Assembly: GCA_021817825.1 (NCBI GenBank)
Contig: JAKAFS010000003.1
Span: forward strand, 22,302 to 86,301
DNA length: 64,000 nucleotides
Reading direction: 5' to 3'
Source: Deltaproteobacteria bacterium
Lineage (GTDB): Bacteria > Desulfobacterota > Syntrophia > Syntrophales > UBA5619
Both the position numbers and the translations under genes were made by a program. Shown here one piece after another: positions 2,465-64,000 of this stretch. Each line of letters begins with the position of its first letter. Positions within the stretch are counted from its first letter, which is position 1. The notes under the pieces were generated by a model. That model was not told where the DNA came from and made no database searches. It saw nothing but the letters and a program-made list of their open reading frames with translations.

Positions 2465-2640
2465 CCTCCTCCTTCTTTCCCGCTGATCCTCACCACAAAA
2501 AAATCAAAAGCCATGGCCGCATTAATCCTCTCTGCGCGGCTGTTATGCTGGGTGATGTGATCCTTCGGAACTACCCTTCCCCTACCTCGCGCTCGTCGTG
2601 TTGTTGGTTTTCGCCTTGTGCACCTCTTTTTATATCAGCC

Positions 2641-2707
2641 CCGCTGCAAGGCGGCTCCGAGTAGTTGCGGAAACGCCGGGAGCGGGGAAAGAGGCGGAAC
2701 GCCGATA
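2641..2707 (+). repeat. head hairpin of the GC-rich element, copy A
   Basis: CCCCGCT...AGCGGGG followed by AAAGAGGCGGAACGCCGATAC, nearly identical to 61946-62015. Confidence 0.7.
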
Positions 2708-2747
2708 CGAATCAGCCCTGCTTCAAGTTGAGCCAACCCGCCCTGCC

Positions 2748-3895
2748 CTATCGGAACAACGCCTCGATGGTTGTCTTTTTGATCTTTTGACCTGGGTTTT
2801 CGGAGCGCCCGGCCGGACGGACCCGGCCACAGGGCGGGACCGTCCGGCGCCCTGGAATCCGCGCAGCGGTTTCGAGGGCGAGGGCTCGAATCAGGGAGAC
2901 GTGTCTCGACCGGAGCGAAGCGGAGGGCGAGTCACGGCGACCGAAAAGAAACTGATCGCCCGCGGCCGCCTGTCTCCGACGCAGGAGGGGACAGGCGGTT
3001 TAGCGGGCCACCTCGGCGCAGGAGGCGCAGCGTCCGTGGTTTTGCGGCGCGGAGCCGACTGCGCAAAAGCCCGAGGACCGGCAGTCCGAGCGCAGCGAGG
3101 TCTGCCGGGACCGGACAAAGAGAAGAAAACCGGAGGGCCTAGGCAGTCAGCGCGCAGCGCCTGTCTGCCGACGGCCCGGAGCACCAAGCAAAGGCGGCCG
3201 AGCGGAGCGTCCGCGGGGTTATGCGGTCGCGGAGCCGGACGCAACGCCCGAGGACCGGCAGTCTGAGCGCAGCGAAGTCTGCCGGGACCGGGCAAGGGAA
3301 AGTACCGAATGCCGGAGGGGCGGGCCGGTCGCCGCGCAGCGGCCGTCCGGCCTGGCCCGGAGGCAAGGAGGGAGCCCCCTGGGGCGGACGGGTGCGGTGG
3401 CAAGCGGCCGAAGGGGCGGCGCGGAGCGCAGCGCAGCCCGGCCACGACGGACGATGGCGACCGCGAGGGAGGGCCGGGGAGAAAGACGCGGCAGGCGGTG
3501 CACCAAGCCGGCAGGGAGCGACGCCTCGGCGCGACCCCGGCGACTGCAACGACAGCCGCCTACCGAACAGATCAGTGAAACGAGCACGCAGAGCCAGCCG
3601 AGCCGGTTGCGCACAAAGCATGCGGCCGGGAAATAAAACACCGCGCGAGGATCAGCAAGGGCGGTGCCGGACCTGGGGCAGAGGAAAGGGCCGGCGACGC
3701 CCTTGCCCGAGTGCGGAAGGGAAAGATGCAGGCGGCGTGACAGGGCTGGGGCAGAGGAATGCCCTGGCGCGCCGCCTGCCTACCGCCTGATGGGGTGGCG
3801 GGCGGGAATTCCCCCTCCGGGGGAGACAGGGGGGGAGAGGGAAAGCTGCAAGGGACGTGACGGCCGGACTTATGGCCGGCGCGGCCCTTGCCTAC
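2748..3895 (+). repeat. GC-rich structured non-coding element, copy A (full length in window)
   Basis: Homologous to 57112-57612 and 63056-64000; serial hairpins, GCGNAGC triloops; no convincing protein. Confidence 0.85.
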
Positions 3896-4147
3896 CCTTT
3901 AGTGGTGGCGATCCAAGAGTTGAGAATCACCATTGATGGCCGTCGCCTACACTTATGTCGATCTGGCCCGGTAGGGTATCGGGCGCCAATCACAGGATGC
4001 TTGTATTCACGTTTCGCTTTGGGCAGGCTCTGTATAGATTCCACAAATTGCCTCCCGTCCTGTAAACTTTGAGCGGTCCACAGCCGGGAGGTTCTCTTAC
4101 CGGCGCTGTCACACGCTACGCGCCCCCCGGCGGGGCAGGAGAAATTA

Positions 4148-38444: not shown

Positions 38445-38620
38445 GGTGTATTCTGCGTCCGGAACAGGTCTCCTGGCTTTCGATCATCCTACTGGCTGCG
38501 CCTTCCCATCCCAGGTTGAGGACAGTGGCATTGTGCAGCGTTCGTCACGACTACAGTCGCGGGGCGGCGGGAGTTTTGGACTCCCTTCCCTTGATCCGGA
38601 TGCACCCTCTTGAAACTGTT
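38445..38620 (-). promoter_or_regulatory. cobalamin riboswitch upstream of the TonB receptor
   Basis: Minus strand GGGAAGGGAGTCCAAAACTCCCGCCGCCCCGCGACTGT...GCCACTGT...GGGAAGGCGCAGCC...GAAAGCCAGGAGACCTG. Confidence 0.88.
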
Positions 38621-40420: not shown

Positions 40421-40487
40421 ATGCCGTATTTCATCCACCTGACGTCGTCGATCATCCCCTTTACCACGGGGGATAATCATGCCTATA

Positions 40488-40665
40488 ACCTGCAAGAAGG
40501 TCTTCCGGCTTCCGGATCGTCTTACTTACCGCGTCTTCCCATTCCTTAAAAACGGAACAGTGACATTGGTGCGGTTTTCATCCCCGGTTACGGCGGCGGG
40601 TCCGCGACGGATTCACACCGTCTTCCCTTTTATGGCCTTGTGGCCTCTCACTTAATAGGTTCTCT
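40488..40665 (-). promoter_or_regulatory. cobalamin riboswitch upstream of tonB
   Basis: Minus strand GGGAAGACGGTGTGAATCCGTCGCGGACCCGCCGCCGTAACC...GTCACTGTT...GGGAAGACGCGGTAAG...GAAGCCGGAAGACC. Confidence 0.9.
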
Positions 40666-40914
40666 AATACAGACCGGCTGGCAATGTCAAGATCAGAATC
40701 ATTTTAAATGAACTTGAGGTGATCGCTCATGGCATCCGTCATTCGGTCAAACTCTTCGGGGCGCAGAAAGTACCCCCAAGCCGATGCACTCCGTGGAACC
40801 GGACAAAGCGAAGCGCGAGATGTAACCTTTTCGTCATTGGGACGTTGTACTATGCAAAGGGGTGTCCACCCATAGGGATGGATAAATCAACCCGCACGAC
40901 AAAGGAGGTTCAAG

Positions 40915-57111: not shown

Positions 57112-57612
57112 GATTGCGGGTTTCATCTTTTGACCTGTTTTGACCTTGGCGTATCCGGGGAACGCCCGCCCGGACGGTCTTGACCAGCGGGAGAGGCTAT
57201 CCGGCGCCCTGGAATCCGCTTCAGCGGTTTCGAGGGCGAGGGCGCGAATCAGGGAAACGTGTCTCGTCCGGAGCGAAGCGCAGGGCGAGTCACGACGACC
57301 GAAAAGAAACTGATCACCCGCGGCCGCCTGTCTCCGACTTTAGGAGGTGACAGGCGGCAAGCGGGCCACCATGGCGCAGGAAGGCGCAGCGTCCGCGGTT
57401 TTGCGGCGCGGAGCCGACTGCGCAAAAGCCCGAGGACCAGGCGCGTCCGAGCGAAGCGAGGTCGCACCGGGAGCGGGCAAGGAACAGAAGAAAACCGGAG
57501 GGCCTAGGCAGTCAGCGCGAAGCGTCTGTCTGCCGACGGCCCGGAGCACCAAGCAAACGCCGGCAGAGCGGAGCGTCCGCGGGTTTTTGCGGTCGCGGAG
57601 CCGGTCCGGCCC
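57112..57612 (+). repeat. GC-rich structured element, copy B (3'-truncated)
   Basis: Aligns with 2785-3237 of copy A; ends about 10 bp before stop of the ABC substrate-binding gene. Confidence 0.85.
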
Positions 57613-61401: not shown

Positions 61402-61945
61402 CGTCACCTCCATTTCGCAGTCGAACGGATGCTGCCCCGAGCTTTCCCAAAGACCTGGGTTGCCATTTCACACACGTCGCCGACGCCGCAGAAAAATGAG
61501 AAGAGCTGCAAGACGCACTTCTGAATTTTCAGAGGATGGCAGTCAACGGTGCAAAGTAAACAGTGCTGGGACAAAGGACCTCCTGATTGCGTCATGCCAC
61601 ATCTCTGCGGCATGATCCTCAGAAGGCTAAAGGATCAACATAGGAGAGAAGGCAGGACGACACGCTACCGGGAACCACACGGGTCCCCCGTTATCGCCTC
61701 ATATTAAGGGTGTGAACAATGGCAACAAACAACTCATAAAAACGCTCCAAATGATTCTTCCGAAAGATTTATAATCCTTCGATTGAACCGTGACATATTA
61801 AATATTGACACGCCTGTCAAGCTTATATTGGCTCAAACCCAGGGAACACGCAGGGAATAATACAACCGTCCGGCCTGTATCAAGGCCATTTTTACGATTG
61901 CCGAGGATCATTGCCTTTGTTTAAAAAGACATGTCTCAAACCCGG

Positions 61946-62016
61946 CCCCGCTGCGAGGCGTCTTCGAGTCGGCAAGGCGACGCCGGAAGCGGGGAAAGAG
62001 GCGGAACGCCGTTACA
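61946..62016 (+). repeat. head hairpin of the GC-rich element, copy C
   Basis: CCCCGCT...AGCGGGG then AAAGAGGCGGAACGCCGTTAC, matching 2641-2709. Confidence 0.7.
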
Positions 62017-62117: not shown

Positions 62118-62924
62118 TCAAGGGATATCGGCATGCTCCCGGATCGCCTTTAACACACCCTGGGCAATTTTTCCGGGACGCTCGCCCACACCGGAGATCT
62201 TGGGGTTCTCAAGGCGCGGGTCTACTTCGAGCACCTTATTTTTGGTCGCCACGGGCACTCCGTCGTGCGTCAACCCGCGCAGGGTGCCGCTGATCGGCGC
62301 ATAAAGCGGCGTGACATCCACATGGGCGATTAATTCCCCCTGCGAGACGACTTCCCCGATCTGCCGAGCGGTGTGAAAGATGCCGCCCACAGGGGCGTAC
62401 ACGTACCGATCGCGGCCGTGACCCGCGATGGGGTTCGGTTCTCCTTCCAGGGGGCGCGTCGAACCATGGGTGATCACGTCGCCGAGCTGAGTTCCCCACG
62501 CCGTTTCGATGGCCAGATGAAAATTATCCCCGGCAATGCAGTTCGGCCCCAGGCCAATGGTCAAGGAAGCAAGGTGGAGTTGCACTTCCGGCTGTTGCCG
62601 TTTGCGCATCCGCGCATCCACCAGGACCTGGGGAGTAAGAAGGCCGGGCAACTGCGGGAACTCCAGCGTCGTCAGCGGAATGACCGACCGTTGGGAGACA
62701 AGAGCGATCAACGCGGGCGCATCCGCCGCATGGCGCGACATAACCCCTTCCAGCACGGCAACCCCCTCGAAGATGGCATCGCTAAAGGCCATCTTTCGGC
62801 GCGTCGTCGTGGGTTGCGGAGAATCATGCAGGACCACTCTGTAGCCGGCCTGAAACAACCTTAACGCCACCGCCGATGCAATATCGTTGCTGCCTCGAAC
62901 AAGGATCTGTAAATCCGCTTCCAT
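62118..62924 (-). CDS. YqeB-type selenium-dependent molybdenum hydroxylase maturation protein
   Basis: LQILVRGSNDIASAVALRLFQAGYRVVLHD...RRKMAFSDAIFEGVAVLEGV...GLGPNCIAGDNFHLAIETAWGTQLG. Confidence 0.8.
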   Translation of the reverse strand: MEADLQILVRGSNDIASAVALRLFQAGYRVVLHDSPQPTTTRRKMAFSDAIFEGVAVLEGVMSRHAADAPALIALVSQRSVIPLTTLEFPQLPGLLTPQVLVDARMRKRQQPEVQLHLASLTIGLGPNCIAGDNFHLAIETAWGTQLGDVITHGSTRPLEGEPNPIAGHGRDRYVYAPVGGIFHTARQIGEVVSQGELIAHVDVTPLYAPISGTLRGLTHDGVPVATKNKVLEVDPRLENPKISGVGERPGKIAQGVLKAIREHADIP

Positions 62925-63055
62925 AAATTCCCTCGCATGAAGACGATTCCCGTTTCCTGGAAACAGGAGACAGAGTCCAAGCATTGTTGCCATCATTGCT
63001 GTGTTATTTATAGCACAGTCTAGCGCCAAAAGTCGATTAATACACCTTACCTCCA

Positions 63056-64000
63056 CTCTATCGGAACTACCCTACAAGGCCATGGTACTTTGACCAGGGT
63101 TTTAGAGCGCCCGGTCGAACGGACTCGACCGCAGGGCGAGGCAGTCCGGCGCCCTGGAATCCGCGCAGCGGTTTCGAGGGCGAGGGCGCGAATCAGGGAG
63201 ACGTGTCTCGTCCGGAGCGAAGCGGAGGGCGAGTCACGATGACCGAAAAGATACTGATCGCCCGCGGCAGCCTGTCTCCGACGAAGGAGGTGACAGGCTG
63301 CCAAGCGGGCCACAAGACGCAGGAGGCGGAGCGTCCGTGGTTTTGCGGCGCGGAGCCGACTGCGCAAATGCCCGCGAACCGGGGCGTCGCGAAGCGAGGT
63401 CGCACCGGGAGCGGGCAAGGGATTAAATGACCGGAGGGCCTAGGCAGTCAGCGCGAAGCGCCTGTCTGCCGACGGCCCGGAGCACCAGGCAAAAGCAAAA
63501 GCGGCCGAGTGGAGCGTCCGCGGGTTTTATGCGGTCGCGGAGCCGGCCGCAACGCCCGAGGACCGGCAGTCTAGTCTGCCGGGACCGGGCAAGGGAAAGT
63601 ACCGAATGCCGGAGGGGCGGGCCGGTCGCCGCGCAGCGGTCGTCCGGCCTGGCCCGGAGGCAGACAGGGAGCCCCACCGGGGCGGACGGGCGCGGAGGCA
63701 AGCGGCCGGAGGGGCGGCGCGGAGCGCAGCGCAGCCCGGCCACGACGGACGATGGCAACCGCGAGGGAGGGCCGGGGAGAATGAAGCGGCAGGCGATGCA
63801 CCAAGCCGGCAGGGAGCGACGCCGCGGCGCGACCCCGGCGACTGCAACGCCGGACGCCTACCCCGCAGATCTTTGAAACGAGCATGCAGAACCAGCCGAG
63901 CCGGTTGCGCACAAAGCATGCGGCCGGGAAAGAAAACACCGCGCGAGGAAAAGCCAAGGGCGGTGCCGGTCCCTGGGGCAGAGGAAAGGGCCGGCGACGC
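63056..64000 (+). repeat. GC-rich structured element, copy C (runs off window)
   Basis: Aligns almost end to end with 2748-3702 of copy A. Confidence 0.88.

Follow-up and report, generated by a model that had tools for sequence, protein, structure and literature searches.

A large, hairpin-rich, dispersed non-coding repeat with a covarying hairpin in a Syntrophales genome

A hairpin described from three places in the window (the whole 64,000-nucleotide stretch analysed) is part of a large, non-coding, scattered repeat of about 0.9-3.2 kb that consists almost entirely of hairpins. The arms of this hairpin, designated H4, change together from copy to copy, and conservation of its folded shape is well supported. 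On balance, we read the repeat as a non-coding, non-autonomous insertion element, similar to REP, BIME and MITE sequences in behaviour and far larger.

Organisation and ends of the element

H4 is one of about ten hairpins contained in a non-coding element of 1.26 kb whose ends are exact (Table 1). The left ends begin with CCCCGCTKC, and in copy A a spacer of about 77 nt lies between the left-end module and the main part; a search of 156 genomes gave no stand-alone match to the left-end module. The right end, CCTTGCCTACC, was found in approximately ten copies from four genomes, stopping at the same nucleotide with unrelated flanks beyond it, and in one copy it reads CCTTGCCTGCC. The left module, enclosed gene and main part of copy C recur as one block on contig C18 with 94% identity, starting at the left-module boundary, indicating that the element is a discrete unit. 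The enclosed gene may be YqeB-like (a molybdenum-hydroxylase accessory gene); a Pfam search with it gave no match. Whole hairpins have been gained and lost between copies, in copy C precisely the tip of a hairpin is missing, and the versions of the element in genome G015 measure 1.9 and 3.2 kb.

Two other features of the window were recorded. Upstream of copy A lies a likely toxin-antitoxin pair (1850-2464), in which a short reading frame is followed by a PIN-domain gene (2039-2464), and two cobalamin riboswitches were detected at 38446-38613 and 40478-40666 (-), with scores of 90 and 97 bits.

Table 1. Positions of the element copies and their hairpins in the window
Feature	Position	Strand	Observation
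Left-end module, copy A: CCCCGCT...AGCGGGG hairpin and GGCGGAACGCC mini-hairpin	2638..2708	+	In most copies, about 70 nt ahead of the main part
Main multi-hairpin part, copy A	2786..3896	+	Right end exactly ..CCTTGCCTACC, common to aligned copies, followed by divergence
H1, copy A ("first stem" of the preliminary description)	2812..2848	+	82.8% of cells paired; weakly supported
H2, copy A	2849..2879	+	97.1% of cells paired; both-side changes at two pairs
H3, copy A, with GAA triloop and GGA/GGA internal loop	2894..2942	+	95.8% of cells paired; both-side changes at two pairs
H4, copy A, with outer GCCCGC/GCGGGC stem	2958..3008	+	Inner part 97.8% of cells paired; 10 both-side changes against 2.0 in shuffles
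Copy B, partial, lacking the left module and the right half	57128..57604	+	From blastn to copy A
H4, copy B	57323..57358	+	From aligned copies
Left-end module, copy C, with a gene between module and main part	61945..62015	+	From blastn to copy A
Gene inside copy C	62118..63056	-	Block repeated on contig C18
Main part, copy C, ending with the contig	63089..64000	+	From blastn to copy A
H4, copy C, with A:T where copy B has C:G	63266..63302	+	From aligned copies

Covariation in the H4 hairpin

The preliminary description placed the hairpin at 2966-2998, 57323-57358 and 63266-63302, which is accurate to the letter; its copies A, B and C are all genuine, but its total of three is too low, as the genome holds seven. 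Within the window there are six CCTGT..ACAGG pairs, where 0.8 would be expected, and copies A, B and C supply three of them. Across the whole genome (3.8 Mb in 204 contigs) a search with copy A gave eight matches, including two fragments of a single copy, and a covariance model gave seven.

H4 was analysed in an alignment of 17 copies, 13 of them distinct over the hairpin, drawn from four genomes and two metagenome contigs: seven from the genome under study (G000), six from G015, one each from G020 and G055, and one each from contigs L085 and L086. The replacement of C:G in copy B by A:T in copy C, one of the two changes on which the earlier claim of selection had been built, is real. Among the 17 copies, two adjacent stem positions take the forms C:G, T:A or A:T and G:C, A:T, C:G or T:A, respectively, with no broken pair at either. 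Outside TGT/ACA the stem has seven pairs, of which six are paired in every copy; the outermost pair of the stem occurs as several pair types and carries seven mismatches. Over the 14 pairs of H4, 97.8% of cells are paired compared with 92.0% in shuffles, and changes on both sides of a pair account for 10 cells against a shuffled value of 2.0 (sd 1.3), a count reached in 0 of 500 shuffles. Sliding the arms against each other lowers pairing to 34-64%. On a copy tree computed with H4 left out, the two best positions show three changes each, giving six separate double substitutions, on a topology in which 11 of 14 inner branches are unresolved.

The proposal that paired substitutions reflect selection on folding is thus upheld for H4 by the deeper alignment, the shuffles, the slides and the copy tree, where pairing is not broken as often as it is kept; it does not carry over to every stem. 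The CTCC/GGAG inner stem never varies among the copies, so covariation speaks neither for nor against it, and the predicted H4 fold favours an inner register that differs from the CTCC/GGAG pairing. The H4 loop (2981-2991) reads AGGAGGTGA in most copies, resembling a ribosome-binding sequence, and AGGAGGGGA in copy A.

Remaining stems and the whole predicted structure

Covariation in H2 and H3 is less strong than in H4. Taken together, the two stems are 96.4% paired, with both-side changes in 5 cells against 0.6. The G:C to T:A exchange previously reported between copies A and C in the first stem (H1) does not survive alignment. By eye, CGGACG of copy A occupies alignment columns 10-15 and CGGACT of copy C columns 14-19, while their 3' partners share columns; with 5' arms four columns apart and 3' arms in the same columns, the stems had been compared out of register. 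In register, CGAACG of copy C faces AGTCCG, so that two of the six pairs are broken, and the first stem of this copy scores z -1.0 under DNA rules and -1.6 under RNA rules against shuffles, many of which fold as well.

When copies were compared pairwise over the whole 1.1 kb RNAalifold structure, broken pairs were about as frequent as both-side changes (between A and C: three both-side, five one-side with pairing kept, five broken), and the folding claim is therefore confined to H4, H2 and H3. Part of this breakage may come from wrong pairs in the predicted structure itself.

Folded strand and nature of the folded molecule

The GCGNAGC motif, which caps hairpins of the element, is distributed over the plus and minus strands as 13/0 in copy A, 7/0 in copy B and 11/0 in copy C, as against 16/20 in the intervening 53 kb. 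As DNA, d(GCGNAGC) folds into a mini-hairpin of unusual stability; because triloops of the GNA type are found in RNA too, the motif does not discriminate between folded DNA and RNA. The main rival to an insertion element, possible but in our view doubtful, is a giant structured non-coding RNA of the GOLLD, ROOL or OLE type, with several paralogous copies under selection for folding as RNA. Such an RNA would agree with the near invariance of the H4 loop and linkers beside a covarying stem, with the score of H3 against shuffles (z -3.2 under RNA rules, -1.6 under DNA rules), with an H3 pair that is chiefly U.G (13 of 17 copies), and with better folding of the plus strand than of the minus strand (z -4.7 and -2.5, 20 shuffles each). 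However, a control stretch from elsewhere in the window scored z -3.6 against its own shuffles, and the folding z-scores consequently carry little weight. G.T combinations outnumbered A.C by just 36 to 23 cells and 30 to 22 types over 253 pairs, no clear excess, and the exact ends at unrelated sites, the patchy occurrence, the truncation of copy B and the gain and loss of hairpins as wholes suit a mobile element. Rfam, including GOLLD, ROOL, OLE, HEARO and the group I and II introns, gave no match at gathering score and a permissive search of 2600-4000 gave chance-level matches only, by which membership of an Rfam family was ruled out.

Paired changes could also arise with no function at all, if palindromic DNA underwent templated correction of one arm by the other or mutation associated with hairpins. 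Both processes readily affect GC-rich palindromes, and the absence of exactly a hairpin tip from copy C and of whole hairpins from other copies fits such an origin. Arm-to-arm correction, though, should erase mismatches, yet the GGA/GGA loop of H3 and unpaired bases of H4 persist in most copies, which makes neutral correction less likely, and the GNA caps lie on one strand only; we consider this explanation improbable.

Distribution and the case for an insertion element

Covariance-model matches were obtained in 11 of 156 Syntrophales genomes (a class-level scan covered the same 156), with several strong copies in G000, G015 and G020; beyond G015 and G020, other genomes held single copies. The weak matches in G063, G050 and G030 belong to a different short hairpin element, and the true number of genomes is accordingly below 11. 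Six congeners gave no model match, one of them (G003) having a partial blast match. A scan of the genome collection for the H4 pattern returned Syntrophaceae of UBA6112 and UBA5619, two "Deltaproteobacteria" bins and one "Acidobacteriota" contig (L086). This last and contig C169 of G000 carry the same outer-membrane efflux gene with an inserted element, at 82% identity over both; from the shared gene neighbours and insertion, L086 is probably misbinned. Being shared at that degree of identity, the insertion is old, which counts against the insertion-element reading.

The copies occupy different intergenic sites, several of them between convergent genes, as judged from a basic list of open reading frames, some of which are doubtful. 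By eye, the right end in G027 (L016 1500-1660) and that of the L141 copy in G000 (right flank) abut what seems to be the same gene 3' end, with the flank TATCCGTTTCGC...GATATCCGCCAG. An insertion element is the most likely reading because the ends are exact, the sites scattered and the occurrence patchy; the covariation and the restriction of the GCGNAGC caps to the plus strand also speak for it. The unit would run from the left hairpin module to the exact right end, mostly as one hairpin after another on a single strand. A trans-acting enzyme would spread it to intergenic sites, probably recognising the folded plus strand, and the stems would stay paired through selection for mobilisation. 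Against this reading, neither a target duplication nor a strong terminal inverted repeat was seen by eye in the flanks of the listed copies, no transposase is tied to the element, and a search of 20 relatives with the flanks of copies B and C found no syntenic empty site.

Mobilisation by RAYT enzymes was rejected, as RAYTs do not track the element: the two such genes (PF01797) of G000 are unlinked to it, and of the multi-copy genomes G020 and G015 (84-88% complete) the first has no Y1 transposase and the second a broken fragment only. A viral or plasmid origin was likewise rejected: the phage and plasmid collections gave no match to the element, and IMG/VR gave none to the one H4 pattern used.

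The different short hairpin element noted above, GCGGCAGTTGAGCAG...CTGCTCAACTGCCGC with a CCGGAGCGAAGCGG hairpin, was observed in three Syntrophales families (L148 1000-1230, L107, L111, L149 and L102), and in L148 it is framed by GCCTAAC and GTTAGGC in an attC-like manner. Integron attC sites function as folded single-stranded DNA, and this property, with the similar-looking short hairpin inside the attC-like site of G063 (L148), raises the idea that the repeat is, or belongs to, a recombination site of the attC type. However, copies A, B and C are not framed by a RYYYAAC/GTTRRRY pair. Integron integrases score above the cut-off in 20 of 61 genomes but stay below it in the multi-copy genomes G000, G015 and G020, and their distribution does not follow that of the element. 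An integron origin is thereby largely refuted, and we regard an attC-type site as very improbable.

Within the insertion-element reading, a bolder version can be put forward, although we think it rather unlikely: a kilobase-scale, protein-less mobile element whose GNA-capped hairpins would be the substrate of a trans-acting enzyme for folded single-stranded DNA, and which could transport a host gene lodged between the left module and the main part.

Comparison with known systems

In the literature that was searched, no Syntrophales repeat of this kind is described. Should the insertion-element reading be correct, an unusually large, structure-dominated family would be added to the bacterial palindromic repeats, and it would be a natural setting for asking whether covariation in such sequences stems from RNA function or from folding as single-stranded DNA. 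The case is also a warning that a functional RNA cannot be concluded from covariation by itself.

MITE-like elements, among them ERIC, are non-coding and dispersed, with exact ends, and are presumably moved in trans. The present element is likewise non-coding, dispersed and exact-ended; it differs in being much longer and mostly composed of hairpins, and in showing neither terminal inverted repeats nor target duplications. With GOLLD, ROOL and OLE (PMC12286853) it has in common a length of hundreds of nucleotides, many stems and covariation. GOLLD and ROOL are RNAs of phages or prophages, often near tRNAs (PMC12286853), whereas no tRNA is present in the window and no phage match was obtained for the element.

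REPs of the GTAG and CGTC families are numerous and 20-40 bp long (PMC3733652). Like REP and BIME sequences (PMC3733652), the element comprises palindromes that can fold as one strand and lie in intergenic DNA, frequently where genes converge or on the 3' side of a gene. Its right end presents GGTAG adjoining a hairpin, on the minus strand only, and this may or may not correspond to the tag of the GTAG family. In contrast to them, no RAYT is linked to its copies, its GNA caps lie on the strand opposite the GTAG-like tag, and it is a unit of 0.9-3.2 kb with about seven copies in its own genome rather than a high-copy repeat of 20-40 bp.
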